Shown: piece by piece, positions 14,566-30,059 of the stretch | Numbering within the stretch: position 1 is the first letter of the stretch | Layout: every line of letters begins with the position of its first letter | Assembly: GCF_002943565.1 (NCBI RefSeq) | Contig: NZ_PJCH01000009.1 | Coordinates: forward strand, 62,001-126,000 | DNA: 64,000 nt | Direction of reading: 5' to 3' | DNA from: Hyphococcus luteus | Lineage (GTDB): Bacteria > Pseudomonadota > Alphaproteobacteria > Caulobacterales > Parvularculaceae | The notes under the pieces: generated by a model | Databases searched by the model: none | The model's input: only the letters and a program-made list of their open reading frames with translations | Told to the model about the DNA's origin: nothing | Translations under genes and position numbers: made by a program

Positions 14566-15462
14566 TTAATAATACTGGTTCGGCATGAAGGCGGACGGGG
14601 ACTTGTTCAGGACCGTGCCGATAATGTTGGATTTGGCGAGAATGCGGTTGGCTTCTTTCAGCTCATGAACCCGCGTGTCGCCGCTGGCCGCGACCAGGAG
14701 AACGCAATCGACCTTCGGCAGGAAGGCGAGGGTGTCGTCGCAGCCAAGAAGCGGCGACATGTCGAAGATCACCGTGCGCGAACCGAAATCATTGACGGCC
14801 GTCTCGATCATCTCGTCCGCCCGGGCCGAGGTCAGATGTTCGGCGCCCCGGCGGGTCACGCGTTCATTGGCCGCCAGCACGATGTCGGAAAGGCCGGGCC
14901 GGACGGCGACGTCGCGGAATCCGCACTTGCCCTCGAAGAAATCGAGCACTGAAGGGAAATTCCTGATGCCGAGATAGCGGGCGATGCTCGGCCGGTAGAA
15001 ATCGAGATCGATCAGCGTGGCGCGCGACCCGGCCTTGCTGCTGAGCGCGATCGCCAGATTGATCGCCGTCACGGTCTTGCCGGCGCCAGCCCCCGGCGAC
15101 ACGACCGCCATAGTCTTCCAGCCTTCCGCGTCCATCTTCTGCAAGACGCGGGTGCGCAGAACGCGATAGGCGTTCAGGACGGGATCCTGTTCGTTGGCGA
15201 TGATGCGGTTGCGGGCGAAATGCTCAAAGTCGCATTCGACCCTGGCGAGGCCGAGATCGTCGCCATGAGGCGAGGGCCCCCTGGCCGCGCGCGCCGCCTG
15301 CACGGCGGCGCCGGCCTGTTTGGCGGCGGTCTGTTTAGCGGCGGCCTGCTGGGCGGCCGCCGGCTGCGCCGCGGCGACAGGCGCGTCGACGGCGGGCGCT
15401 TCGGCGCGATGGCCTTCTCTTTTCTGACGGGCGCGGGTGACCGCGTTGCGAATACGATCCAT
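14566..15462 (-). CDS. CpsD/CapB-type tyrosine autokinase (exosortase-locus polysaccharide kinase)
   Basis: Encodes 298 residues. After an Ala/Gln-rich low-complexity stretch (about 25-65) comes the BY-kinase ATPase core: Walker A GAGAGKT at residues 124-130, Walker A' LIDLDFYRPS, and Walker B-like VIFDMSPLLG. The tail ends NQYY, giving a short Tyr cluster as possible autophosphorylation sites. Such kinases cycle phosphorylation with a Wzz-type partner in the inner membrane to control polysaccharide chain length and export. The Wzz-type gene is immediately upstream on the same strand. Family relatives at exosortase loci are annotated as XrtA-associated tyrosine autokinases. Confidence 0.88.
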   Translation of the reverse strand: MDRIRNAVTRARQKREGHRAEAPAVDAPVAAAQPAAAQQAAAKQTAAKQAGAAVQAARAARGPSPHGDDLGLARVECDFEHFARNRIIANEQDPVLNAYRVLRTRVLQKMDAEGWKTMAVVSPGAGAGKTVTAINLAIALSSKAGSRATLIDLDFYRPSIARYLGIRNFPSVLDFFEGKCGFRDVAVRPGLSDIVLAANERVTRRGAEHLTSARADEMIETAVNDFGSRTVIFDMSPLLGCDDTLAFLPKVDCVLLVAASGDTRVHELKEANRILAKSNIIGTVLNKSPSAFMPNQYY

Positions 15463-15497: not shown

Positions 15498-17138
15498 TCA
15501 TAGCGCCGGCTCCGGCTCCTGCGGCGCCAGCTTCGTCCGGCGGAACAGCTTGCCGGCGGCGCCGCCGATAAACCGCCGCCAGAGCGTGTTCTTGTTGTCC
15601 GCCTCGCTGTGAATATAGGGAATGACGGCGATCGGCTGCGCTTCGATTATGCCGGCCAGGTGCGTGCGTCCGCGCAGTTTCGCCTGCAACAGCTCCATGC
15701 CGAGCGCCGCGCCGCCGCCGGCGGCGAGCGCGGCGAAGAGCGCGAGGACAGTCAGCTTTCCGCGATCGGGACTTGAGGGCTTGTCCGGCTGCAGCGCCGG
15801 TTCGAGGATGGAGAATTTCTCCGCCTGTCGGTTTTCCTCAAGATTTTCCGCGAGCTGAGCATCCTGCTGTTTCGCCAGCACTTCCTGGTATTCCGAGAAC
15901 AGATTATCGTAATCGCGGTTGAGATTGGCTATGCCGCGTTCGACTTCCGGCGTGCGCGAGACGCGCTGTTCGAGATCGGCGATCTGCTTCAGCAACTCGT
16001 CGATCTGTTTGTTCAACATTCTGATGCGGTTGTCGATGACGGCGATGCGGCCTTCGATCTGAACGCCGGAAATGTCAGAGGCGCCTTTGCGGGTTTCTTT
16101 TGAAATGCGGTCGCTCAGCGCGTTGCGCGCGGCCTCGACCTCTGTTTCCGCGGCGGCGACCGCTTCCGGATCGGCCGGGTTCGCATTTTCAGCTGCGGTC
16201 AGTTTGTCTTCGGCGGCGGCGAGCCCGTCGCGCAGCCGCTGGATCTCGGCGCTCGGCGCCATGCGCGCCTTGATCGAGGCAATCTCTTCGCGTTTCGCCA
16301 CGACTTCCGGGTAGTTGTCGCGATAGGTGGCTCTAAGGCGCGCCAGCTCCGACTCGAGACGTGCGAGCTCCGCCGTCACGCTGTTGTCGCCGCTGGCGCC
16401 GCTGATCAGCTGCGTTTCCAGAAAACGGCGCTCTTCCTCGAGCTGGGAAATCGACGTCTTGGCGGCGTTGAGGTCGCTGCGCGCGCGTTCGAGCATGCTG
16501 AGATGCATGTTCAGATGTTCCGGCAGCGCGTCGCTGTTCTTCTGTTTGTACTCGGCGACCCGGGTTTCCATGTCAGCGACTGCGTTGCGCAGCCGATTGG
16601 CTTCTCTTTCAAAAAATTCCGTGGTGTTGGAGGCGCCGGCGGTGCGCGAGCGCACATCCTCATTGAGGAACAGCGTCATGAACTTGTTGGCGACCAGATA
16701 TGCGTTGCGCGCGCTGGTGTCCGTATAGGAGACCGTAAAGGCGATAGTGCCGTCGCGGTTGTTCCGGCCCGCGGCGGTGATCACGTTGACTTTCAGCCTT
16801 TCGCGCATCAGGGCCGCGCGCTCGCTTTCCGACAGGCCGAGCGAGCGCGGAAAAAGATCGTATTCGTCCGCAACCTCAAGCAGGCGGTTGCGGGTCATGA
16901 CCCGCTGGCGGATCGTCGAAATCCGCTCCTGCGCATAGGCGTTGACCGTCGAGCGGACCAGGTCGGTGGGGATTTGTTGAGACTCCACGAGGATCGTGCC
17001 TTGCGCGGTGTATTTCGCCGGCAGCAGCATGACGGCGATGATCCCCAAAGGCGCGAGGACCAGAACCGGCAAGAGGAAAGACAGAAAGCGCCGCTGCAGG
17101 ATGATCAGCGCGTCTTCGATTGAAAATTCGTCACCCAT
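15498..17138 (-). CDS. Wzz-type polysaccharide chain-length determinant (GNVR family)
   Basis: Encodes 546 residues from the ATG at 17138; a TTG three codons earlier is less likely. One N-terminal helix (LSFLLPVLVLAPLGIIAVML), a long periplasmic coiled-coil region (about 170-440, rich in Glu/Arg/Ala), and a second helix (LTVLALFAALAAGGGAALG) near residue 470, followed by a short cytoplasmic tail. This is the standard two-helix Wzz/GumC/EpsF arrangement. It sets chain length and couples to the kinase encoded 35 bp downstream. Length and order match chain-length proteins of exosortase-associated EPS clusters. Confidence 0.9.
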   Translation of the reverse strand: MGDEFSIEDALIILQRRFLSFLLPVLVLAPLGIIAVMLLPAKYTAQGTILVESQQIPTDLVRSTVNAYAQERISTIRQRVMTRNRLLEVADEYDLFPRSLGLSESERAALMRERLKVNVITAAGRNNRDGTIAFTVSYTDTSARNAYLVANKFMTLFLNEDVRSRTAGASNTTEFFEREANRLRNAVADMETRVAEYKQKNSDALPEHLNMHLSMLERARSDLNAAKTSISQLEEERRFLETQLISGASGDNSVTAELARLESELARLRATYRDNYPEVVAKREEIASIKARMAPSAEIQRLRDGLAAAEDKLTAAENANPADPEAVAAAETEVEAARNALSDRISKETRKGASDISGVQIEGRIAVIDNRIRMLNKQIDELLKQIADLEQRVSRTPEVERGIANLNRDYDNLFSEYQEVLAKQQDAQLAENLEENRQAEKFSILEPALQPDKPSSPDRGKLTVLALFAALAAGGGAALGMELLQAKLRGRTHLAGIIEAQPIAVIPYIHSEADNKNTLWRRFIGGAAGKLFRRTKLAPQEPEPAL

Positions 17139-17435
17139 AGGTCTCAATATCCGTTTCCGACGCCGTATCTTTCCGGGACGGCGTCCGCCTTGGCCGCGGC
17201 CGTCTTTCGAGTTCCGTTACGCCCGATGGCGCCGACCCCCTCCAGTTGCAAGACCTGCGCCGTTTTCGCAAGGGGCGTCCAAAAAAGGTGCGAATCCGGG
17301 ATTTCCGGCGCAGGCCAAGAGTTTAGAGCAGGATAGCCCCGAAAATAAGGCGCCCGGGCGATTGATTTTCGCCGTCGGCGGGCGCCCGTTTCCCCCCCCC
17401 CTCGGGGCGGCGAAGGCTGCGCCCGGTTTGGCGGC
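17139..17435. other. Non-coding gap between the exosortase and chain-length genes, with C10 tract
   Basis: These 297 bases separate two same-strand genes of one cluster. Only a run of 10 C (17392-17401) stands out, flanked by GGCGCCCG-type short repeats. I see no convincing promoter, terminator or small gene. The size suggests the chain-length gene may have its own promoter here. Confidence 0.5.
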
Positions 17436-19064
17436 CTATTCGTACTCGTTCGGATCGAAGGACCGCGTCGTCGGCGCATCTTCGGGCGGAATGTAAGGAT
17501 CGAGCAGCGGGTCCAGCGTGTTCATGAAACCCTGAAGACGCACGTCTGCATTCTCGAGCGCCTCGCCCTGGGAGACCGGCGTCATGATGCGGATCATCGC
17601 CCCGTCGGTGCGGCGCAAGCGCACGGCGTCGAAGATCAGAAGGGTCTTCATGACGAATTCGTTGGCGATCCGGCGGCTGCGCTGGTCGTACCAGTAATAG
17701 AGAAGCTGGCGCGCGCCGCGGTTTTCAATGACGATGCGGTTGTAGTGGAAAGTCGAGCCGTCGGAGAGCGTGGCCTCCTCGACTTGGTGATCGACGATCT
17801 GCCAGCCCCCGCCGGGGATGCACTGCCGCGGCGAATGCCAGCTATGCCCGTGCCGCTGCATGTCCAGATAGGCGATATAAAGGTTGAACCGTTCGTCTTC
17901 GGGGCTGGTGAGATTGGTGATGATGTAATCGTCCGCGCCGAGGACGTCGACGGTGGCGCTGTCGACATGCTGCACGTCGCTCCGCCAGCCTTCGAGTTCG
18001 TAAGGCAGGCCGGCGAGATCGGTCCGGTCGGGAATGCGCAGGATGTTGGAAATGCCGAAATGAACATAGGCGCCCGCCGCCGCGATGAGCGCGATGGAAA
18101 TCCCCGCATGCAGCATGAAGCGGTCTTTTGTCCATTTGTCAGCAGCCGGCCGGGCCTCGATGTCGGGCAGGCCAAGCAACTCGGTGAATGGTTTTTTGCC
18201 GGAAATCCGCGCCAGAATGGCGATAATCCCGAACAGAAGCGCGAGGCACAGGATGAAAACCACCCAGCCTTCAAACATGTGAATGAAGCCTTCCGCATGT
18301 TCGGTTCCGAAGCGCTGGACGAGAACGCCCGTCACTGCGATCCGGAAACTGTTCATCAAGATGGTGATGGGGATTGTCGACAGGAACACGATCGCCCGCT
18401 GCCATAACGGCGCCTGGAACAGATAGGCGGCGAGGAAGCCGAGGCTCAAAAACGGAAACAGATAGCGAAGGCCCGAACAGGCTTCCGCCACCTGCAGCTT
18501 GTAATCGCCGAGATCGATAATGTTGCCGGAAAGGAAAACGGGAATGCCGAGAAAATCGATCATCGCGACGCCGAGCTGCGACGACCAGAGCTGGAATTGC
18601 TGCGACAGGACGGTGATCACCCAGTAAGGCGGCGGCACCATGAACAGCATGAAGCCGATGGGCAAAAGCGTCAGCCAGAAAATGCGCCATCCCCCAAGCC
18701 CGAGCGCCAGCGAGGAAAACAGAAGGATCATTGCAAGGTGCTGAAAGATCATCAGCGAGGTAACGGTCAACTCTGACAGGACAAGCACGATTGCGGAGAT
18801 GGCGACGCCGGCGAGGCCGAGGAGCGCGGGCTTGCCGAGGCTGCCGCGCAGCGCGTCGCGCCGCGCCCAGATCATCCAGGCCGAAATCAGCGGCAGGAAA
18901 TAGCCGTGGCTCAGCTCCTGCTGTTCGCCCCAGCGTTTGAACAGGTTTTCGATGCCGCCCCAAAAGGCGAAGACGGTGACGGCCCCGACCACGGCGAGGA
19001 CATGGATCGGGCGTACGGTGAAGCCTGTGTTGGAGGGGCCTGCGCCGGTATTGCTGTCTGACAT
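17436..19064 (-). CDS. xrtD: Exosortase fused to EpsI domain (VPLPA-CTERM exosortase, XrtD-like)
   Basis: Encodes 542 residues. The N-terminal two-thirds is a polytopic exosortase with the full catalytic triad: Cys196 in EACSGLRYLF, Arg241 in NSFRIAV, and His262 in FIHMFEGW. A C-terminal soluble domain (about 330-542) is EpsI/DUF3485-like, marked by HSPRQCIPGGGW. Exosortases are inner-membrane transpeptidase-like enzymes that cleave PEP-CTERM proteins and attach them to a surface acceptor. The exosortase-EpsI fusion is the layout of XrtD, which recognises VPLPA-type signals, and just such a substrate is encoded at 4576-5268. It heads the leftward arm of the polysaccharide locus. Confidence 0.92.
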   Translation of the reverse strand: MSDSNTGAGPSNTGFTVRPIHVLAVVGAVTVFAFWGGIENLFKRWGEQQELSHGYFLPLISAWMIWARRDALRGSLGKPALLGLAGVAISAIVLVLSELTVTSLMIFQHLAMILLFSSLALGLGGWRIFWLTLLPIGFMLFMVPPPYWVITVLSQQFQLWSSQLGVAMIDFLGIPVFLSGNIIDLGDYKLQVAEACSGLRYLFPFLSLGFLAAYLFQAPLWQRAIVFLSTIPITILMNSFRIAVTGVLVQRFGTEHAEGFIHMFEGWVVFILCLALLFGIIAILARISGKKPFTELLGLPDIEARPAADKWTKDRFMLHAGISIALIAAAGAYVHFGISNILRIPDRTDLAGLPYELEGWRSDVQHVDSATVDVLGADDYIITNLTSPEDERFNLYIAYLDMQRHGHSWHSPRQCIPGGGWQIVDHQVEEATLSDGSTFHYNRIVIENRGARQLLYYWYDQRSRRIANEFVMKTLLIFDAVRLRRTDGAMIRIMTPVSQGEALENADVRLQGFMNTLDPLLDPYIPPEDAPTTRSFDPNEYE

Positions 19065-19531: not shown

Positions 19532-20770
19532 ATGGAAAGCGGCATTTTAATGAGCATGACCGACCCTCTCGCCCCTCAGGAGCCCCAGCGTGACACGCTG
19601 CGGGACGCAGGGGCGGTTGCGCCGCTGCGCCGGGACGATTTCGACCGGGACGTGTGGTGCCTCATGGGGCTGGCCGTCGACGCCGCCGACATCACCCGCG
19701 CCATGGCCGAGATTGACGATGCGGCGCGCACCGGCCGCAAGCTCTCTTTCGTGACGCCGAATGTGAATTTTCTGGTCCGCGCCGCCGCCGATCCGGCCGC
19801 CCGGCGCGAAATCCTGAACGCCGATCTTTCCCTCGTCGACGGCGCTCCGCTGGTGATGATGGCGAAGCTCCTCGGCGTGCCCGTGCCGTCGCGCGTCGCC
19901 GGTTCCGATCTTTTCGAAGCGCTGCGCCGCCGCCCGGGTTTTGCAGGCCGGCGTCTTAAAGTCTTTTTCTTCGGCGGGCGCGACGGCGCGGCCGAAGCGG
20001 CGGCCGAGGCCCTCAACCGCGAACGCGGCGGTCTTGAGGCCGTCGGCTGGCTCAATCCCGGGTTCGGCGATGTTGACGCCATGAGTTCGGACGCCGTGAT
20101 CGACGAAATCAATGCGGCGGAGGCGGATTTCATCGTGGTCGCGCTCGGCGCCGCCAAAGGCCAGGCCTGGATCGACCGTAATCAGGGCCGGCTGACCGCG
20201 CCGGTGATGTCTCATCTCGGCGCCGTTGTCGATTTCACTGCCGGCGGCGTCGCCCGCGCGCCGCAATGGGTCGCCAGGGCCGGTCTCGAATGGGCCTGGC
20301 GGATCAAGGAAGAGCCTTCCCTTTGGAAGCGGTACTATAAAGACGGTCTCGGTCTCGCCCGTCTCGTCCTGACCGGGCTGGCCCCGCAGCTCGGCCGCAG
20401 GCGGCTGGACGCGGCTGGCGAAGCCGGCGCTGATCTCGAAGCCGCGCCGGCGGAAACGATCATCCGGCTCTCCGGCGATCTGGGCCATCGAAATCTCGCT
20501 CCCGTGCGCGAGGCGTTCCGCGCCGCGGCCGCGCGCGGCAAGTCCGTGCGGCTCGATTTCAGCGGCGCCGGCCGGGTCGATCGCGCCTTTCTCGGCCAGC
20601 TTTTGATGCTGGAAAAGCATCTCGGACGCGCCGGCGCCCAAATCCGCATTTCCGGCGCAAACCGGAATGTGGCGGCGCTCCTCGCCGCCAACCGCATGCG
20701 CTATGCGCCCGCGCAGGCCGCGGACGTCTCCGGCGCGGACGCCGCGACGGCCCGCAAGGCGGCGGTTTGA
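19532..20770 (+). CDS. WecG/TagA/CpsF glycosyltransferase fused to a C-terminal STAS domain
   Basis: Encodes 412 residues if the first ATG is used; ATGs at 19550 and 19556 are alternatives and none has a strong ribosome site. Residues about 40-260 are the WecG/TagA/CpsF (GT26) fold: TPNVNFLVRAA, LVDGAPLVMMAKLLG, RVAGSDLFEAL, VALGAAKGQAWI and GAVVDFTAGGVARAPQW. GT26 enzymes transfer N-acetylmannosaminuronate or similar sugars to lipid-linked acceptors. Residues about 310-395 form a STAS (anti-anti-sigma-like) domain, where the usual phosphorylated Ser in D-S-S-G is replaced (VDRAFLGQLL). First gene of the rightward arm. GT family is clear; the STAS call is moderately strong. Confidence 0.85.
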   Translation: MESGILMSMTDPLAPQEPQRDTLRDAGAVAPLRRDDFDRDVWCLMGLAVDAADITRAMAEIDDAARTGRKLSFVTPNVNFLVRAAADPAARREILNADLSLVDGAPLVMMAKLLGVPVPSRVAGSDLFEALRRRPGFAGRRLKVFFFGGRDGAAEAAAEALNRERGGLEAVGWLNPGFGDVDAMSSDAVIDEINAAEADFIVVALGAAKGQAWIDRNQGRLTAPVMSHLGAVVDFTAGGVARAPQWVARAGLEWAWRIKEEPSLWKRYYKDGLGLARLVLTGLAPQLGRRRLDAAGEAGADLEAAPAETIIRLSGDLGHRNLAPVREAFRAAAARGKSVRLDFSGAGRVDRAFLGQLLMLEKHLGRAGAQIRISGANRNVAALLAANRMRYAPAQAADVSGADAATARKAAV

Positions 20771-20840
20771 AACAGGATTTCATTGTAACGGGAGCCCATT
20801 AGTGGCACATCAACGGTTCTTGAAGAAAAGGGTGGAGAAC

Positions 20841-23264
20841 ATGACGGCATCAGCAAAACATTTCATGCGCGCAGTGAAAAACGCGCGTCCTTGGCGCGTT
20901 TCGCGGCTGGCCGCCGTGTCTCTCCTGGCGATGTCGGCGGCCTGCGCGTCGCCGGAGCAGAAGGTCGAGCGCTATTCCAACGAAGCCGCCGAATTTTTCG
21001 AAAACGGCGAGCTGACCAAGGCCTATATCCAGTATCAAAATGTGCTGAAAATCGACGAGGAAAACGTCCCGGCGCTGCTCGGTCTCGCAGAGATCGCCGA
21101 GCAGCGGCAGGATTTTCAAGGCATGTTCAGCTATCTGCAGCGCGTCTTGCGTCTCGATCCGAACCAGGTCGATGCGCGTGTGAAGATCGGCAAGATTTAT
21201 CTTCTCGGCAGCGACGAAACGGCGGCGCTTGAGGAAGCCGAGAAAGCCCTGGAGCTCGAGCCCGACAATCTCGACGCCATGGCGTTGAAAGCGGGCGTCC
21301 TGTTGAAAATCGGCGACAACGCCAGCGCGGTCGAACTCGCCCGCCAAGTGCTGGGGCGGGATCCCGCCAATCCTGAAGCGGTGACGGTGATCGTCACCGA
21401 TCATATGACGAAGAATGAAAAGGAAGAGGCGCTCGCCGAACTCGACAAGGCGCTCGACATCGATCCCCAGCTGGCGATGCTGCAGCTCCTGCGCATCTAT
21501 GTTCTCCAGAGCCTCGACCGCACAGATGACGTGCGCGAGGCCTATGCCCGCATGATCGAGCTCTTCCCGGAACAAACGGCGTATCGCCGTGTTTACGCGG
21601 GCGAATTGATCCGCCTTGGAGAATATGAGGCGGCGCGCAAACAACTTGAAGCCGTGGTCGAGAAAGAGCCCGGCAATCTCGCTGTGAAGATGGATGTCGT
21701 TCGCGTGATCAAGGCGGGTGAGGGGAACGCCGCCGCCGAAGCGAAACTGAAAAGCTATGTTGAGGCGGACCCGGACAATGTGGATCTCAAATTCGCGCTC
21801 GTTGATTACTATCTGGGCGAAGACACGCCTGAAAAAGCGAATGACCTCTTAGACGAGCTTGCCGGCAGCGACGATATCGACATTTCGCTTCGCGCCAAAA
21901 ACAAGCTTGCCGGGACGCTTATGAACTCCGGCGACAAGGAGGCCGCGCACGCGCTTACGGATGAAATTCTCGCTGCTGACGACCGCAACACCCAGGCGCT
22001 GTTGCGCAGGGCCGCGTTCGAGATCGAAGCGGAAGAGTACGATCAGGCGATCGTGGATTTGCGCACGGTTCTCGACAACAGCCCCGATACGTATCAGGCG
22101 AATGTCCTGATGTCCGCCGCTTTCGAAGCGCAGGGCAACGCCAGCTTCGCCCGGGCCGAACTCGCCAAGTCTTTTGAAAACAGCAATCGCGACCCGAATG
22201 TGGCGAACCATTTCGCCAAATTCCTTCTGCGCCAGAAGGATGCGGACCGCGCCGAGGAGGTGCTTCTGGATTCGCTCGCCGCGCATGAGGATGATGTCGA
22301 AAACATGAAGCTGCTCGCCTCGATCCGGCTTGCGCGTCAGGACTGGCGCGGCGCCGAGGAAGTGGGCGAAATGATCGAACGCGCTGGCGGCGACAGCGCG
22401 CTCGGGTCCAATGTCAAGGCCGCCGCCTATGTGGGGCTCGAAGATTATGACAGCGTCATTGAAACGCTGAATGAGCGCCAGGCCCAAAGGCCGCTCGATA
22501 CGCAGCCCCTGGCGGCGCTCGTCAACGCCTATATTCGCCAGGACCGCACGGACGAAGCCGAAGCCATGCTCGAGCGGATGCTTGAGAATGAGCCGGACAA
22601 CTACCCGGCGCTCATTCTTCTTGCGCGCGTTTATAGCGAGAAAGGCCAGATGGAAGACGCCGAATCGACTCTGGTGAAAGCGACCCAAGCCAGTCCCGAC
22701 CGCGCGCAGGCCTATGAAATTCTGTACCGGACCTATCTCAGCCGCGGCCAGCAGGACAAGGCGGCGGCGCTGATCGAACGCGGTCTTGCCGCGGCGCCCG
22801 ACAACGACGCGCTCAAGGTTTACAAGGCGGATGTTCTGCTGTCGCAAGGCAGGCGCGAGGAGGCGCTCGACCTTTATTCGGAGCTGATCAAGGTCCGTCC
22901 GAACGACCGGATTATCGCGAACAATTTCGTCAGCCTGTCGAGCGATCTGCGTCAGGACGAGAAAAGCGTCGCCCGCGCGCTGGAAGTCGCCAAAGTGATC
23001 GAAAATCTCGGCAATCCGTATTTTCGCGACACCGTCGGCTGGGCTTATTACCGCGCCGGCGAATATGACAAGGCGCTTCAATATCTTAAAGAAGCGGCGG
23101 CGGGCGCTGAGAACAATGGCGAGATCCTTTATCATCTGGGCGCCGCCCAGGCCGCTTCGGGCGATGAAGCCGCTGCGAAAGCCACGCTGGAAAAAGCGCT
23201 TTCCGTCAGCGGAGAGGATTTCGCATTTGTCAACGAAGTGCGGACGCTGCTAGACCGCCTGTAG
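20841..23264 (+). CDS. PrsT-like TPR lipoprotein of the exosortase/EPS system
   Basis: Encodes 807 residues from an ATG at 20841 preceded by GGTGGAG. A lipoprotein signal (SLLAMSAAC, Cys35) places it at a membrane facing the periplasm. The rest is about twenty tetratricopeptide-like helical repeats, visible as recurring A-x(3)-L-x(2)-A-L-x(2)-D/E-P patterns (for example YLQRVLRLDPNQVDARVKIG and ALELEPDNLDAMALKAGVLL). Large TPR lipoproteins of this kind (PrsT) accompany exosortases and act as scaffolds for polysaccharide polymerisation or export. It lies between the GT-STAS and ATPase genes on the same strand. Confidence 0.88.
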   Translation: MTASAKHFMRAVKNARPWRVSRLAAVSLLAMSAACASPEQKVERYSNEAAEFFENGELTKAYIQYQNVLKIDEENVPALLGLAEIAEQRQDFQGMFSYLQRVLRLDPNQVDARVKIGKIYLLGSDETAALEEAEKALELEPDNLDAMALKAGVLLKIGDNASAVELARQVLGRDPANPEAVTVIVTDHMTKNEKEEALAELDKALDIDPQLAMLQLLRIYVLQSLDRTDDVREAYARMIELFPEQTAYRRVYAGELIRLGEYEAARKQLEAVVEKEPGNLAVKMDVVRVIKAGEGNAAAEAKLKSYVEADPDNVDLKFALVDYYLGEDTPEKANDLLDELAGSDDIDISLRAKNKLAGTLMNSGDKEAAHALTDEILAADDRNTQALLRRAAFEIEAEEYDQAIVDLRTVLDNSPDTYQANVLMSAAFEAQGNASFARAELAKSFENSNRDPNVANHFAKFLLRQKDADRAEEVLLDSLAAHEDDVENMKLLASIRLARQDWRGAEEVGEMIERAGGDSALGSNVKAAAYVGLEDYDSVIETLNERQAQRPLDTQPLAALVNAYIRQDRTDEAEAMLERMLENEPDNYPALILLARVYSEKGQMEDAESTLVKATQASPDRAQAYEILYRTYLSRGQQDKAAALIERGLAAAPDNDALKVYKADVLLSQGRREEALDLYSELIKVRPNDRIIANNFVSLSSDLRQDEKSVARALEVAKVIENLGNPYFRDTVGWAYYRAGEYDKALQYLKEAAAGAENNGEILYHLGAAQAASGDEAAAKATLEKALSVSGEDFAFVNEVRTLLDRL

Positions 23265-23332: not shown

Positions 23333-25513
23333 ATGTACGAGCAGTTTTTCGGCCTAGCGGAAAAACCGTTTTCCATACAGCCGGATCCGTCCTTCCTGTA
23401 TTGGGGGCGGACCCACAGGCTCGCCTATGCGATGCTGGAATACGGCGTTCTGAACTATGCCGGGATTTCCGTCATCACCGGCGAGGTCGGCTGCGGCAAG
23501 ACCACGCTGATCCACCGGCTGCTCGATCAGCTGTCCGACACCCATACGGTGACGCTGCTCTCCAATATTCAGGAAGGGCGGGGCGACCTTTTGAGCTGGG
23601 TGCTGATGGGGTTCGGGCAGCCCTTCAGCGACGACAATCACGTGGCGCTCTTCTCCCAGCTCCAGAGCTTTTTCATCGGCGAATACGCCAAGGGCAAACG
23701 CGTCGTCCTGATCATCGACGAGGCGCAGAACCTGTCGATGGACATGCTGGAGGAGTTGAGACTCCTTTCCAACATCAACGCCGGCAAGGACCAGCTTTTA
23801 CAGTTGATCCTGGTCGGCCAGCCGGAATTGAAAGACGTTCTCAACCGGCCTGAGCTGTTGCAGCTGGCGCAGCGCATCGGCTCGGATTTTCACTTAACGC
23901 CGCTGAGCCGCGAAGAAGTCCACTCTTATATCGAAACGCGGTTGTCGATCGCCGGCTGCCGCCGCCGGGTTTTCACCGAGCGCGCTATTGACCTGATTGC
24001 GGAGCAATCGCGCGGCGTTCCGCGCGTCATCAACATTATCGCCGACACGGCGCTCGTTTATGCATTTTCCGCAGAGGACCTCGTCGTCGGCGTGGAGACG
24101 ATCCGCAGCGTCGTGCGCGATAAAAAAGCTTACGGCGTCTTCGGCATCGCCGCCAATGAGCCGGGCGTGGGGCCGATCTCTTCGGATGAGGATGACGGAG
24201 AAGGGCCGGACGCTTTTGTCGGCGAGCAAAATCGCGCGGCTTACGAGGCGGCGGGGCCTGCGTATGCTCCCGGCCCGGACGAAGGCAACCGTGTTTCTCC
24301 CGGCGCGGCGGCGGAGCAGCGCGCCGGCGTGCGCGCCGATGTGCGGGCGCGGTTGATGCCGGCGGGCAGCGATCTTTCCCCGCCTGACGCGCATGCGCCG
24401 TCCGCGCCCGCCTATGAGCCGGCGCACGAAGCGGACGCTTATGGAGCGCCGGAACGTGAGCCGGCTCCCCGCCAGGAAGAAGCTTACGAAATTGCGCCTG
24501 AACCGGCCCTGCAAGAGCCGCCCGTCACCGGCGTCGTGATCGTCGGCGCCGATCCGCGCGTGTCGCCCGAAGCCTCCATTCGCTCCGTAGGGGACGGGCG
24601 GCCGGTGGTGTTTGTCCCCATGACGGCGATGAACGAAGCGATCGCGCAAGCCAGGAAAGCGGGCGCCGAAATCGTCGAACCGGGCAAGGGGCTGCAGACC
24701 GGCGGACGGGCGAAAAACGCCGGCTACAGACAATTGAAAAAGATCGCGCCGGATCTTTCTTATGTGCAGTTTATCGAAGCCGGCGCGGCGCTCGATCCGG
24801 ATTGGCTGAGCGCGGCGGAAAATTTCATGCAGCGCCGGCCCGAGGTCGCCGTCATTGACGGGCGCATGCGCAACAGCAAGGGCGAATTGTTCTCTTTTCC
24901 GACGCTCGCTGAACAGCGCCTGCGCGATGCGGCGGGCGAAATCGTCTCTGTCGCCGGCGGCGGCGCTTTTGTGCGCGCCGATGCGTTTGAGGCCGCCGGC
25001 GGTTTTCGCGGCGATCTGTTGTCTTGCGAGGTCGACGATCTTTGCATCCGTCAGCGCCGCCGCGGCTCCCATATCTGGCGGCTTGAGGCGGACATGGCCA
25101 TCAATGCGCAGCGCCGCCGGCGCGGCTGGTGGGGCCGTTCGGTCTTGCGCGGCTTCGACAACGCCTACGCCATGTCGCTGCATGGCGGCCCGCCGGAGCG
25201 GCACGGCGTCGGCCAGACCCTGAACGCGATTATCTGGGGCCTTGTCTTTCCGCTTTTCATTCTCGCTTCCGCCGGTCTTGGCGCGCTGGTGGCCTCGAAG
25301 CTTGCGCCGATGATGCAGGCCCCGCTGGTGGCCGCCGGCGTGCTCGCCGCCGGCGCCGGCATATACGGACTGAAAATTCTCGCGAGTCTTCTTGTGCGCG
25401 GGCCGTTCAGGCTTTCTTCCTGGGGCGGCGCCTTCGGCGCCGTGCTCGGCCGGATTCCCGAAGCGCTCGGCGTTTTGCGTTTCTGGTTCGGCGGCGATCG
25501 TCCGGCGCGATGA
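23333..25513 (+). CDS. ExeA-like AAA ATPase fused to a degenerate GT2-like membrane domain
   Basis: Encodes 726 residues. Residues 1-270 are a GspA/ExeA-like ATPase, as in XrtA-associated ATPases: FFGLAEKPFSIQPDPSFLYW start, Walker A GEVGCGKTT (50-58), Walker B VVLIIDEAQNL. A Pro/Ala/Glu linker (about 275-395) follows. Residues about 395-610 look like a GT-A glycosyltransferase (GRAKNAGYRQL, VQFIEAGAALDPDWL, GGGAFVRADAFEAAGGF, DDLCIRQRRRGSHIWRL), but the metal-binding DxD position reads EAGA. Two hydrophobic segments (about 630-690) end the protein. ATPase function is likely; the transferase half is probably catalytically dead. The stop overlaps the next start as ATGA. Confidence 0.85.
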   Translation: MYEQFFGLAEKPFSIQPDPSFLYWGRTHRLAYAMLEYGVLNYAGISVITGEVGCGKTTLIHRLLDQLSDTHTVTLLSNIQEGRGDLLSWVLMGFGQPFSDDNHVALFSQLQSFFIGEYAKGKRVVLIIDEAQNLSMDMLEELRLLSNINAGKDQLLQLILVGQPELKDVLNRPELLQLAQRIGSDFHLTPLSREEVHSYIETRLSIAGCRRRVFTERAIDLIAEQSRGVPRVINIIADTALVYAFSAEDLVVGVETIRSVVRDKKAYGVFGIAANEPGVGPISSDEDDGEGPDAFVGEQNRAAYEAAGPAYAPGPDEGNRVSPGAAAEQRAGVRADVRARLMPAGSDLSPPDAHAPSAPAYEPAHEADAYGAPEREPAPRQEEAYEIAPEPALQEPPVTGVVIVGADPRVSPEASIRSVGDGRPVVFVPMTAMNEAIAQARKAGAEIVEPGKGLQTGGRAKNAGYRQLKKIAPDLSYVQFIEAGAALDPDWLSAAENFMQRRPEVAVIDGRMRNSKGELFSFPTLAEQRLRDAAGEIVSVAGGGAFVRADAFEAAGGFRGDLLSCEVDDLCIRQRRRGSHIWRLEADMAINAQRRRRGWWGRSVLRGFDNAYAMSLHGGPPERHGVGQTLNAIIWGLVFPLFILASAGLGALVASKLAPMMQAPLVAAGVLAAGAGIYGLKILASLLVRGPFRLSSWGGAFGAVLGRIPEALGVLRFWFGGDRPAR

Positions 25514-26706
25514 CCCTGCTTGTCTATCTCTTGCTGACGCCGCTTGTCCTGGCGGGGCTGGCGTTTTCGATTTTTCTTGCGCTTGAAATCGCCGCGGCCT
25601 TGAGCGCGCGCGATGAAGAGCGCGCGGATGCGCCGGCGCCGCCCTTTGTCGTGGTCATTCCCGCCCACAACGAAGCCGGAACCATTGCGCCGGTGCTGGA
25701 GAATGTGCGCGGCTGCGTGCGCGAGGGCGACCGCATTCTCGTGGTCGCCGACAATTGCGCCGACCAGACCGCCGATATTGCGCGCGCCGCCGGAGTCGAC
25801 GTCATCGAACGCAACGATCCGTCGCGGCGCGGCAAGGGCTATGCGTTGCAATTCGCGCTCGATCATTTGCGGCGCGCGCCGCCGGCGATCGTCGTTTTCA
25901 GCGATGCTGACTGTCAGTTCGCGCCGGGGGCGCTGCAGCGCGTGGCGGCGGCGGCGCAGGCCTCCGGCCGGCCGGCGCAGGCGCTTTATCTGATGACGGC
26001 GCCGGCCGGCGCGGGCCCGCGTCTTCAGGCGTCGGAATTCGCCTGGGCCTTCATGAACAACGCCCGCATGCGCGGACTGCAGCGTCTGTTCAACGTCACG
26101 CGTTTCACCGGCGCCGGGTTCGCCGCGCCATGGCCGGCGCTCGCCGATCTTCAACTTGCTTCCGGTGAAATCGTTGAAGACCTGGCGCTGACCATGGCGC
26201 TGATTCGCAAAGGCGCGCCGCCGATGCTGGTTGCGGACGCGCTTGTCGTCAGCGAGTTTCCGACAGACGATGCGGCGCTGACGCGGCAGGCTGCGCGCTG
26301 GTCCATCGGGTCCATGCGCTATTCGGCGCGCGCGGGGCTGGCGGCGTTGCTCGAAGGCGTCTTTAAAGGCCGGCCTTCCCAGATCGGCGCCGCCGTCGAT
26401 CTGATGGTGCCGCCGCTGACGGTGTTTGCGGCTGCGCTGACGATGCTTGTGTTGTTTGGTTTTCTGGCGGGATTGTTTGTTGGCGCATGGATGCTTTTCG
26501 CACTCGCGCTTTGCGCGCTTGTCATCGCGGCGGCGGCGGTCGTCGCCGGCTGGCGGCGTTACGGACGCGACGCGTTGCCGCCCGAATCATTGGGCGGGCT
26601 TTTTGCGCTTCTTGCGTCAAAAGCATCCGTATTCGGATCGCATGGGCGCAAAAGTGCGAAGTCATGGACGCCGACGCGCGGTGATTCGGGCGGTGAAAAC
26701 GGATAA
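25510..26706 (+). CDS. GT2 family membrane glycosyltransferase
   Basis: Encodes 398 residues from the ATG inside the upstream stop (ATGA overlap), so it is translationally coupled to the ATPase-GT gene. An N-terminal helix (LLVYLLLTPLVLAGLAFSIF) precedes a GT-A domain with PAHNEAGTI, VADNCADQTADIA, the DAD metal site at residues 132-134 (SDADCQF) and a QAARWSIG segment equivalent to the QxxRW motif. C-terminal helices (VFAAALTMLVLFGFLAGLF and following) anchor it in the inner membrane. It probably adds a sugar during polysaccharide repeat-unit or polymer synthesis. Substrate is unknown. Confidence 0.9.
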   Translation: MTLLVYLLLTPLVLAGLAFSIFLALEIAAALSARDEERADAPAPPFVVVIPAHNEAGTIAPVLENVRGCVREGDRILVVADNCADQTADIARAAGVDVIERNDPSRRGKGYALQFALDHLRRAPPAIVVFSDADCQFAPGALQRVAAAAQASGRPAQALYLMTAPAGAGPRLQASEFAWAFMNNARMRGLQRLFNVTRFTGAGFAAPWPALADLQLASGEIVEDLALTMALIRKGAPPMLVADALVVSEFPTDDAALTRQAARWSIGSMRYSARAGLAALLEGVFKGRPSQIGAAVDLMVPPLTVFAAALTMLVLFGFLAGLFVGAWMLFALALCALVIAAAAVVAGWRRYGRDALPPESLGGLFALLASKASVFGSHGRKSAKSWTPTRGDSGGENG

Positions 26707-26993
26707 ACGGACTCTTGCGCACATTATGCGTCTTCGGGCCGGTCGTCCCTGGCGGGGTTAAGCGGGCGGGATTAACCGGAAAGAAACGTTTGTTTACGAA
26801 TTCGGCGCGTTTTCGTCATTTGAGAAACGAAATATCGAGTTCCGCCCGTTAGCGATTAACTCTGCGTAACATCCGCCATAGGCCAGTAAATTAGCCAAGT
26901 CGGATTTAATTCTAACAAAACCGTCAATGAATCTTTTGCGGGCCCTCCGCTACGTTTTCCTTCTGGTTGCGTCAGTTTTTATATGGGACCGTT
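26707..26993 (+). other. AT-rich leader upstream of the G8 surface protein
   Basis: The 287 bases between the GT2 gene and the G8 protein are noticeably more AT-rich than their surroundings (26770-26935), as expected for a separate promoter. No hairpin with a U-tract ends the upstream operon. I could not settle on promoter boxes. Confidence 0.4.
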
Positions 26994-29900
26994 ATGAGTT
27001 TCGATGCATACGCCCGGAATTCCCGTTTCGCAGGTGATTTCACGGATCTTGTGGAAGCCGCCAACAAGGGGCTGCTGCCCGGCGCGAAAAAGCGCGGTCG
27101 CTCCCGCGGCAAATCCGGCGTAAAGCAGCGGCTCTCCCAGGCCGCGCTCCTGGCGCCCTTGCTGGCGACGGAAGGCTGCCTGACGCTTGGCGATGAAGGC
27201 GGCGCGCTTGCCGATCAGGAAGGGGCGCCGCCGCCCGCTCCGGACGCCCAGGACGCCCCGACGGCGCCGACTGCGCCGACTGCCCCGCCGGCGACGGTTC
27301 AGGCCGTGAACGACGCAGGGTATCATTCCGATTTGAACAGCGACATTCTCATCTCGCCTGACGACTTGTTCGCCAATGACCAGAAACCTCAAGACGCGAC
27401 GCTGGAGATCGTTCGCGTCTTTGGCGCGAGCCATGGCGAAGTCCATCTGATTGACGGGCTTGTCCGGTTTACGCCGGACTCCGGCTATGAAGGCGTCGCG
27501 AATTTCTTCTACGAAGTGCGCGACAGCAACGGCAATCTCAGCCAGGCAGGCGTCGAGCTTCATGTCGGCGCCATGGATCAAGACGGCATGGATCACGCCG
27601 CGCATGGCATGCACATGGCCGTCATGGAGCTGGTGCCGATCAGCGAGGCGACTCATGTCGCCGTCAACAACGGCTCATGGTTCGATCCCAACACCTGGGC
27701 GGACGGCGAAATTCCCGGCGAAGGGGCGAAGGTCCTCATCCCCGAGGGTATTGAAGTGCTCTATGACGGCGAAAGCCCGGTTTCGCTGTTTACGGTTCGC
27801 GTCGATGGCGCGCTGGATTTTGCGACTGATGAGGACACCTTTATGGAGGTGGACACGCTGGTCGTGAGCCAAGTCGGACGCTTGACGATCGGCACGCAGG
27901 ACAATCCGGTGAGCCCGAATGTTCAGACGATCATTCAAATCGCGGATAACGGGCCGATCGATGTCGAATGGGATCCCACGCTTGTCTCACGCGGCGTGAT
28001 CACCAACGGCGATGTCGAAATCCACGGCGCGTACAAGGATACGTTTCTTAAAGTGGCGGCGGATCCGATGGCCGGCGACACGTCGCTCACCCTGGAAAGC
28101 GTTCCGGAAGGATGGCGGGTCGGCGACAAGCTGGTGCTGACCGGCACGCATCTGACCGAGACAATCGGGCAGGATCCTAACGAGGCGATGATTAACGAGA
28201 CAGAAGACGAAGAGCTGATTATCACCAGCATCAGCGGCAATGTGGTGAATTTCGACCGTCCGCTCGAATTCGATCATGAAGGCGCGCGTTCCGACCTCAA
28301 GGCCTATGTGGCGAATTACACGCGCAATGTGCGCGTTCAAACCGAAAACGCAGATGATCTTCCGGTCTATCAGCGGGGCCATGTCATGCTGATGATGTCG
28401 GATGATATCGACGTTCGCTATGCGGAGTTTCTGGACCTTGGCCGGACAGACAAATCGCACCGGGCATTCGATGTCGAAGATCTCGACACGGTCGAAAGCG
28501 ATTCCAACGTCAAGGCCCGCTATTCGCTGCATTTGCACCATCTGGGCGTCGACGATCCCGAAAACCCTGCAATGCTTGTCGGCAACTCCGTCTGGGGCTC
28601 GCCGGGCTGGGGCTACGTGCACCATGACTCAAATGCGATTCTCGCCGACAATGCGGCCTACGATACCTGGGGCGCCGGGTTTGTCGCTGAAACCGGCAAT
28701 GAGATCGGCCGTTGGGTCCACAACATATCCATCAGGACGGTCGGCACGGCGGCGGCGCCGAAATGGTTTGAGGATGTTGTGGCGTTCGACCTTGGCCGCT
28801 CCGGCGTAAATTTCTGGTTTCAGGGCCGCCTCGTGGACGCGCTCGACAATGTCGCGGCGGGCTCGCCCGGCGGCCAGGGCTTTGTCTACATGACCCGCGG
28901 CGCCGGCCAGACGATTCCCATCGACAGTGTGAATGCGGATTTTCCGGAGACGATGCACTATTGGGATAAAGTAGACATTGCGCTGCCGTCGATTTCGCAG
29001 TTCGAGGGGAACGAGGCGATCGCCGTCAATCTCGGCCTGCAGGTCGTCAAATCGAACTCCAAGCAGTATCACGACGACCGGTCAATCATTAAGGATTTCA
29101 CCGGTTGGGAAGTCGAGACCGGCGTCGAGCTGCAATATACGGCGCACTATACGCTGGAAAATATCGATGTCGTCGGCTCGACGGGCGCGGGCGGCGGCGT
29201 GCTCGGTTTTAGGGGCATTGAATACGCGAATTCGGTGTTCAGCACCGTGGTGAACGGCGCGACCGTGGACGGCTTCCAAGAAGGCATCTATTACAACAAG
29301 AACACCACGGGGCTGGATCCGACATTTGACAATAACTGGGACTATGTCTTCGTTGATCTTGATTTAAAGAACAATGGCGAGGACATGCCGACTTTCGACC
29401 CGGCGCACGACAGGCTGCTGTCCAGCAGTGATTTGCGCACGGGCGACCTTCTCATCGATCCGGATTATGACGGCATCTGGGGCGTGCCGGACCCGGGCGC
29501 AGACTCTTTTGTTCTGAGCGGAACGAAAACGGACAGTCTCGGCGAAGGGCCGATCTCTCCCACTTGGGATCCGGAATATATCAATCTTCTGGCGGTTCGG
29601 GGCGCGGTGGCCGCCGAAGGCTACTGGACGCTTTCCGATGGCCGGATCGTCACGCAAATCGAGCAGTATTTCGTTGACCGCGTCACCGGCGAGGCCGACA
29701 AAATCTCGCATTTCGTCACATGGGAGAAAGGTCCCAATGTGTTTGACGTGGCCCCGGAGTATCATGGCGTTCTCGACCGCAACAGCAACGCGCCTGTGGC
29801 TGTCGACGATTCCGCCACTGCGCCCGGCGTTGAAGAAAGCGTTATCATCGACGTCCTGGCGAACGACTTCGATCCCGACGGCGACACGACAAGAGTCGAC

Positions 29901-30059
29901 GGCATCGTTCAGCCGACCCATGGTCAGGTGTTTTTGAACGACGACAACACGGTGACCTATGCGCCGGATCCGAATTTTTCAGGCACGGACGAATTCTGGT
30001 ACTGGGTTGAAGACAATAATGGCCAGTTCGACAAGGGCCACGTCACCATCGAAGTCTAA
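26994..30059 (+). CDS. Giant surface protein: Ig-like, G8 and parallel beta-helix domains
   Basis: Encodes 1021 residues from an ATG at 26994 with GGGA upstream. The N-terminus is odd: no Sec signal at the start, then a Lys/Arg-rich segment ([15 protein letters not shown]), a short hydrophobic stretch ending ATEGC, and a Thr/Ala/Pro linker. An Ig/cadherin-like module follows (about 110-190; [18 protein letters not shown]), then a G8 domain (about 220-330; [20 protein letters not shown]), a long right-handed beta-helix-like region as in G8/CEMIP proteins, and a C-terminal Ig-like module ([28 protein letters not shown]). G8 proteins bind or process extracellular glycans, so a role with the EPS made next door is plausible. 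No PEP-CTERM signal at its end. Confidence 0.8.

Follow-up and report, generated by a model that had tools for sequence, protein, structure and literature searches.

Results

Gene content of the locus

We analysed a window of 64,000 nucleotides from Hyphococcus luteus (contig NZ_PJCH01000009.1), in which genes for exopolysaccharide synthesis and an exosortase surround a single gene that joins an ATPase to a putative pseudo-glycosyltransferase domain, abbreviated here as pGT (Table 1). The fusion frame opens with an ATG at 23333 and closes with a TGA at 25511–25513 (726 codons plus stop), the TGA overlapping the ATG at 25510 of the following EpsU-like GT2 gene as ATGA. The PrsT-like gene ends at 23264, ahead of the fusion start at 23333, and its true start probably lies downstream of 20667. 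The EpsU-like GT2 (25510–26706) scores 132 bits against the EpsU model NF041865 (cut-off 700) and, as judged by eye, carries D-A-D, E-D and Q-x-x-R-W. The genome holds 25 matches to VPLPA-CTERM, 20 of them above cut-off, so the exosortase has candidate substrates.

Table 1. Features of the locus and of the fusion gene, numbered by position in the window
Feature	Coordinates	Strand	Evidence
Tyrosine autokinase-like, exopolysaccharide locus	14566..15462	-	TIGR03018 108 bits, cut-off 230.65
Polysaccharide chain-length determinant	15498..17147	-	TIGR03007 226.5 bits, cut-off 278.85
Exosortase XrtD (VPLPA-CTERM type) with EpsI domain	17436..19064	-	TIGR04152 493.5 bits, cut-off 400
WecG/TagA/CpsF glycosyltransferase with C-terminal STAS	19532..20770	+	STAS_2 57.7 bits
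PrsT-like TPR protein	20667..23264	+	TIGR02917 240.8 bits, cut-off 312.2
Fusion ORF: ATPase, linker and pseudo-glycosyltransferase (pGT), 726 aa	23333..25513	+	single open frame
ATPase domain (TIGR03015-like, AAA_22), residues 1-268	23333..24136	+	profile matches
Walker A GEVGCGKT, residues 50-57	23480..23503	+	
Walker B acidic pair D129 E130	23717..23722	+	
Linker, residues 269-397	24137..24523	+	
pGT domain, residues 398-726: predicted GT-A fold and membrane tail	24524..25510	+	
Lost R-N-E site, residues 406-408, reads ADP	24548..24556	+	
Lost D-S-G-S-T-D site, residues 429-434, reads PMTAMN	24617..24634	+	
Lost metal motif D-G-D-C site, residues 482-485, reads EAGA	24776..24787	+	
Lost base motif G-E-E-P-E site, residues 565-569, reads CEVDD	25025..25039	+	
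Lost H-D site, residues 591-592, reads NA	25103..25108	+	
Presumed membrane helix 1 (model helix 626-657)	25208..25303	+	model helix and hydrophobic sequence
Presumed membrane helix 2 (model helix 663-689)	25319..25399	+	model helix and hydrophobic sequence
EpsU-like GT2, next gene	25510..26706	+	PF13641 74.4 bits, above cut-off

The ATPase half

We read 33 fused sequences, the window and 32 loci, and aligned 28 of them. We left out L018, in which an assembly gap interrupts the frame, L019, which lies at a contig end, and L025, L026 and L027, which are near L023/L024; L028 was retained despite its truncation at the locus end. All 28 sequences have an ATPase of exactly 268 residues, followed by a linker of 96 to 203 and a remainder of 312 to 339 (L028 being cut at its end).

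The original prediction of an N-terminal exosortase-locus ATPase whose Walker motifs are intact was borne out. Against TIGR03015, which has a curated cut-off of 324.5 bits, residues 1–263 score 278.8; the same half matches PF13401 (AAA_22) at 99.9 bits, above the cut-off of 27. The Walker A residues G50, G53, C54, G55, K56 and T57 and the Walker B residues D129 and E130 are invariant in 28/28 fused sequences. The protein thus has the Walker motifs and the exosortase, PrsT and exopolysaccharide gene setting of a TIGR03015 ATPase, with a score short of the curated value; other ATPases also score below the cut-off (L048, 284.2 bits; L149, 240.9; L053, 284.7). In genus g2 of the Parvularculaceae the ATPases have 273–278 residues and lie behind PrsT. 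No peptidoglycan-binding domain was found among the best 25 of the 27 Pfam families matched by the whole fusion protein up to E 1. The H. luteus genome encodes a second exosortase-type ATPase on contig 10 (locus L002, 1501–2910), which reaches 341 bits with TIGR03015, above the cut-off, has a long tail and is flanked by a polysaccharide deacetylase on one side and a weak match to an outer-membrane barrel on the other.

Predicted structure of the C-terminal half

AlphaFold modelled the pGT domain alone with a pLDDT of 90.6 and a pTM of 0.86, as a predicted GT-A fold. Foldseek returned 300 PDB chains for this model at E up to 0.001, and the 50 chains listed were all named glycosyltransferases or polysaccharide synthases; hyaluronan synthase, BcsA, WrtF, K4 chondroitin polymerase, PcManGT, TarS and SpsA were among the matches, with hyaluronan and cellulose synthases at the top. 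The proposal that this half resembles GT2 enzymes therefore stands on the predicted fold and its glycosyltransferase matches, together with the 313 columns aligned to the relatives described below, and the fold search gave no hint of a fold outside GT-A. In Pfam, the pGT region alone matched only PF13632 (glycosyltransferase family group 2), with E 0.00099 and a score of 19.4 bits (cut-off 27), and this family was matched by 25/28 fused domains at E up to 0.01 (best 8.9e-10). A PDB sequence search with the pGT, as a single domain or as a profile, returned no match. As a GT2 member the domain thus has the predicted GT-A fold and lacks a Pfam score above cut-off, the D-x-D, the base acid and the H-D.

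In the full-length model the pGT was equally good, the ATPase was poor in parts and the linker was disordered (pLDDT mostly <50); the pTM was 0.48, so the relative placement of ATPase and pGT is not predicted. The two hydrophobic helices behind the GT-A domain (residues 626–657 and 663–689) are presumed to be membrane helices.

Loss of the catalytic motifs

As a reference we used L003, a stand-alone intact GT2 of 335 aa encoded on another contig of the same genome. It shares 35% identity with the window protein over residues 399–670 and retains R-N-E, D-S-G-S-T-D, D-G-D-C, G-E-E-P-E-L and H-D; its nearest NCBIfam models are MftF and EpsD, with scores far below their cut-offs. In GT2 enzymes the motifs in question are donor, metal, base and acceptor-side positions. 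With L003 we gathered 41 intact cousins from Parvularculaceae genomes and four other genomes of the class, which lack the ATPase and, unlike the fused pGT, keep all 11 motif residues. Profile-profile comparison of the fused domains with these cousins aligned 313 columns, including the tail after the GT-A domain, at E 1.4e-69, so their kinship is not due to chance.

All 11 motif residues and the base-position acid are present in 41/41 intact cousins, against 0/11 motif residues in the window protein and 0–3 of 11 in each of the 28 fused sequences. The motif readings first proposed for the metal, base and H-D sites (D-G-D-C as EAGA at 482–485, G-E-E-P-E as CEVDD at 565–569, with V567 at the base position, and H-D as NA at 591–592) were right, and two losses come on top of them: R-N-E has become A-D-P and D-S-G-S-T-D has become P-M-T-A-M-N. 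EAGA does not hold throughout the family, since D-x-D survives in 6/28 fused sequences; the base-position acid survives in 1/28 and both together in 0/28. The R and E of R-N-E, the first Asp of D-S-G-S-T-D and the His are gone in 28/28, and the residues that replace the lost motifs vary among relatives. A catalytic Asp displaced to another column was considered and rejected, the alignment of the window protein with L003 being gapless inside and directly beside all five motifs; in 6/28 fused sequences the final Asp of D-S-G-S-T-D falls in a gap.

Conservation within the fused set averages 10% in the 11 motif columns versus 52% in the 44 other columns invariant among the cousins (Mann-Whitney p 0.001, with the 11 columns picked as GT2 motifs after the alignment was seen). 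In all, 31 pGT columns are invariant across the 28 sequences, and R459, N462, G510, R573, M588, G607 and H617, which do not vary among the cousins either, are among the invariant positions; E566 is present in 23/28 and D482 in 14/28. Because the motif columns are relaxed while the fold columns are kept, the alignment bears the signature of a pseudoenzyme. The reading of this half as a pseudo-glycosyltransferase, with none of the 11 motif residues in the window protein and all of them in every cousin, is upheld within the limits of sequence data and a predicted structure.

Selection and origin

We computed NG86 dN/dS for 11 pairs and obtained, where it was computable, 0.014–0.12 for the ATPase, 0.05–0.39 for the globular pGT and 0.11–0.75 for the tail, several of the dS values being saturated or undefined. 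The tail evolves faster than the globular pGT in 7/10 pairs computed, and, wherever computable, the dN/dS of the linker exceeds that of both folded parts. The pGT is therefore held by purifying selection, less tightly than the ATPase, and a recent pseudogene is rejected on the conserved frame and the dN/dS values.

In a phylogenetic tree without outgroup, a single branch with support of 100/100 separates the 28 fused domains from the 41 cousins, a pattern consistent with one old origin of the fused pGT; the cousins had been selected by their match to the window protein, which leaves distant GT2s outside this tree. Origin by fusion with a glycosyltransferase gene adjoining the ATPase found no support, as no glycosyltransferase lies behind the ATPase in the g2 loci L149, L151 and L153.

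Distribution and association with the exosortase

Both halves occur in one frame, at least in part, in 33/62 Parvularculaceae genomes, which answers the call for a survey of exosortase loci for the same fusion. By genus the counts are 23/28 in that of the window, 7/9 in g6, 2/3 in g3 and 1/1 in g9; in G063 and G066, which are not among the 33, the ATPase sits at a contig end. The fusion tracks the exosortase XrtD within the family: XrtD was detected in 41/62 genomes, and the fusion is found in 31/41 XrtD-positive versus 2/21 XrtD-negative genomes. Put the other way, XrtD is present in 31/33 fused genomes, the two exceptions being 84% and 78% complete, and also in G063 and G066. Eight XrtD-positive genomes (seven of genus g2, plus G034) have the ATPase without a pGT in its frame.

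A scan of a genome collection with the pGT profile gave 32 loci, 31 with a pGT and one (L107) with a stand-alone intact cousin; it relied on two short peptide patterns, by which distant fusions would be missed. ATPase and pGT share one frame in 30 of these 31 loci, the remaining one (L098) starting at a contig end. The matching records are labelled Parvularculaceae, Parvularcula, Marinicaulis, Amphiplicatus or only Alphaproteobacteria, and the family name used here rests on these labels. Beyond the family, 385 genomes sampled across the class included 60 that matched, and only the window's own genome had both halves in one match; 398 genomes sampled across the phylum included 211 that matched, with the same outcome among the matches listed. 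Either sample had at most two candidates scored per genome, and some genomes are shared between the two. Within the order, 24 genomes of four other families yielded two weak matches, neither with both halves, and of 138 plasmid records matched none had a single place covering 80% of the query. The architecture is a variant of known parts, found so far in one family, the Parvularculaceae.

The assertion that such ATPases are usually stand-alone proteins is true for the closest relatives outside the family, which in the class sample have 46–59% identity and open frames of 294–387 aa, but not as a general rule: many TIGR03015-like ATPases at the phylum level lie, among the matches listed, in frames of 500–900 aa whose ends are unlike the pGT, and the H. 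luteus genome has an ATPase of this kind at L002.

Conserved gene order

PrsT lies upstream in 30/31 pGT loci, the exception (L098) starting at a contig end, and the PrsT–ATPase pair is also kept at the unfused loci L048–L051 and L149–L154. An EpsU-type GT2 lies downstream in 27/31. Two of the exceptions, L096 and L105, run into a contig end; in L100 and L102, about 10 kb of further sequence yields no EpsU-type match. An intact cousin of the pGT lies downstream in 16/31 loci, the window genome having its cousin on another contig. Among the loci examined, only the window and L077 show the stop/start overlap with the next gene; elsewhere the next ORF, where found, starts 6–310 bases on, the 310 belonging to L093, in which an assembly gap interrupts the frame. 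In 14/31 loci the following ORF opens with much the same residues (A-Y-x-x-N-Q/R-Y or similar). In many loci a GT4-type gene, absent in the window, follows the fusion gene and precedes the EpsU-type GT2; the sole one tested is that of L082 (11011–12225; PF13692, 105.6 bits).

Three further features of these loci deserve mention. The WecG-type gene with its STAS domain is a second odd fusion of a glycosyltransferase and a regulatory-type domain in one operon, and a STAS match occupies its place in 28/31 fusion loci and in L150, which has an unfused ATPase. Downstream of the glycosyltransferases (26967–30059, plus strand), the window encodes a 1030-aa protein with a G8 domain, a CEMIP-type beta-helix and cadherin/Big-like domains, matched downstream in 24/31 loci. 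In Amphiplicatus metriothermophilus (L106, 12030–14219), an EpsU-type GT2 and an intact pGT cousin form one 729-aa frame with two GT2 stretches.

Discussion

By combining profile searches, alignments and predicted structures, we describe a conserved gene fusion in which an exosortase-locus ATPase carries a degenerate GT2. The fusion itself, the ATPase motifs, the predicted GT-A fold, the motif loss in 28/28 sequences, purifying selection, the single group in the tree and the locus context are all supported by our data. In our preferred reading, to which we give a probability of roughly one half, the dead GT2 would be a membrane docking module that brings the ATPase to polysaccharide glycosyltransferases. 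The ATPase is likely the working part of the protein and the dead glycosyltransferase its binding part. On this model the GT2 would have lost its catalytic residues long ago while keeping the GT-A fold and the membrane tail. We infer an orientation that would place the pGT at the cytoplasmic face, where it would dock next to its cousin and the other intact glycosyltransferases that the exopolysaccharide locus encodes, with the flexible linker holding the ATPase at the docking site. ATP binding and hydrolysis would then drive the assembly or remodelling of a synthesis-export complex, in concert with PrsT, which is encoded just ahead of the fusion. The 729-aa protein of A. metriothermophilus, a single case, hints that the intact cousins and the EpsU-type glycosyltransferases pair, and so that an EpsU-type partner may also exist for the dead copy. 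A more specific version, which we put forward tentatively, is an exopolysaccharide synthase complex in which the pseudoenzyme pairs with its living cousins and an ExeA-type ATPase assembles, gates or recycles them, linking polymer synthesis to exosortase-dependent sorting. In favour of docking we count the retained fold with its lost motifs, the purifying selection on the pGT, the link with XrtD, and the neighbouring PrsT and EpsU-type genes with the stop/start overlap in the window. Against docking stands the observation that XrtD systems also run without the fusion, in eight genomes of the family. The rarity of the stop/start overlap, the EpsU-type GT2 missing behind the fusion in L100 and L102, the fast-evolving tail and the invariant R459 and N462 weigh against it as well.

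In the original prediction the pGT serves as a sensor or lectin-like module through which ATP hydrolysis is tied to the state of the polysaccharide. A domain able to bind, but not turn over, a nucleotide or a free or lipid-linked sugar, and thereby to gate the ATPase, would fit a common sensor layout, that of a binding domain fused to an ATPase, and the invariance of R459 and N462 in the G-R-A-R-N-A-G stretch next to the former donor site (28/28), with E566 in 23/28 and D482 in 14/28, may leave room for a ligand in the pGT. However, the R-N-E, D-S-G-S-T-D and H-D positions are altered, and differently so between relatives, and D-x-D is left in only 6/28; pocket residues that relatives do not share argue against a common ligand. 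Release of constraint at the donor, metal, base and H-D positions alike makes a pocket for a sugar nucleotide unlikely, and the simplest account is that the domain contacts other proteins at the membrane. We therefore do not favour the sensor and consider it rather unlikely.

We likewise give only a small chance to the pGT being a plain membrane anchor, a tail with no specific glycosyltransferase partner on an ExeA-like envelope assembly factor that acts with PrsT. Two observations speak for it: PrsT and the ATPase are a conserved gene pair even at unfused loci, and, according to the accessible part of the published account, ExeA and ExeB together with peptidoglycan assemble the ExeD secretin (PMC4098917). 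An anchor, however, would hardly need a globular domain of about 230 residues under purifying selection (dN/dS 0.05–0.39), nor 31 columns invariant in 28 sequences.

That the pGT is still an enzyme, through a rebuilt or metal-independent active site, is very improbable: although D-x-D persists in 6/28 sequences and the base-position acid in 1/28, none has both, four motif residues are lost throughout, and the varying substitutes leave no new common active site visible. A decaying relic or an assembly artefact, to which the fast tail of some pairs (dN/dS up to 0.75) might point, can be all but dismissed given one frame in 33/62 family genomes and 30/31 loci and a dN/dS <0.4 in both folded domains.

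How does the fusion compare with known systems? It resembles the XrtA/PEP-CTERM system-associated ATPase of TIGR03015 (ExeA/GspA-like) in its 263 N-terminal residues, its Walker motifs and its place beside PrsT in an exosortase/exopolysaccharide locus, and differs from the model in its score below cut-off and in carrying a pGT outside the model's description. No role assigned to exosortase-locus ATPases was found in the literature searched under the TIGR03015-type name, nor any paper on such a fusion, in a search by listings rather than full texts with many journals outside its reach. In its accessible part, the text of an early PEP-CTERM paper does not contain the word ATPase (PMC1569441).

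The match of the pGT fold to hyaluronan synthase, BcsA and K4 chondroitin polymerase (E 5e-10 to 2e-9, TM-score by query 0.47–0.61) comes with 11–15% identity, and these proteins, unlike the pGT, are active enzymes and have no ATPase. We take the ATPase of ExeA to be of the same broad family as that of the fusion. The ExeA-ExeB assembly factors of type II secretion differ from the fusion in their C-terminal module, their peptidoglycan-binding domain being absent from its Pfam matches; the likeness lies in an ATPase serving envelope assembly, as far as the accessible part of the source describes it (PMC4098917).

For the docking reading, the closest parallels are plant proteins, IRX9 and GAUT5/6/7, which presumably belong to glycosyltransferase families other than that of the pGT and, unlike the fusion, are eukaryotic and without a fused ATPase. 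In the accessible parts of the reports, IRX9 is a glycosyltransferase homologue with a structural role in xylan synthesis (PMC4132061), and GAUT5/6/7 are structural homologues that tether GAUT1 in pectin synthesis (PMC7533613). The shared idea is a glycosyltransferase homologue that holds or places an active partner (PMC4132061; PMC7533613, in the same parts). An ATPase joined to a dead GT2 hints that membrane glycosyltransferases may be a site of action for ATPases of exosortase loci. If this is true, the fusion would be a bacterial counterpart of the plant structural glycosyltransferase homologues.
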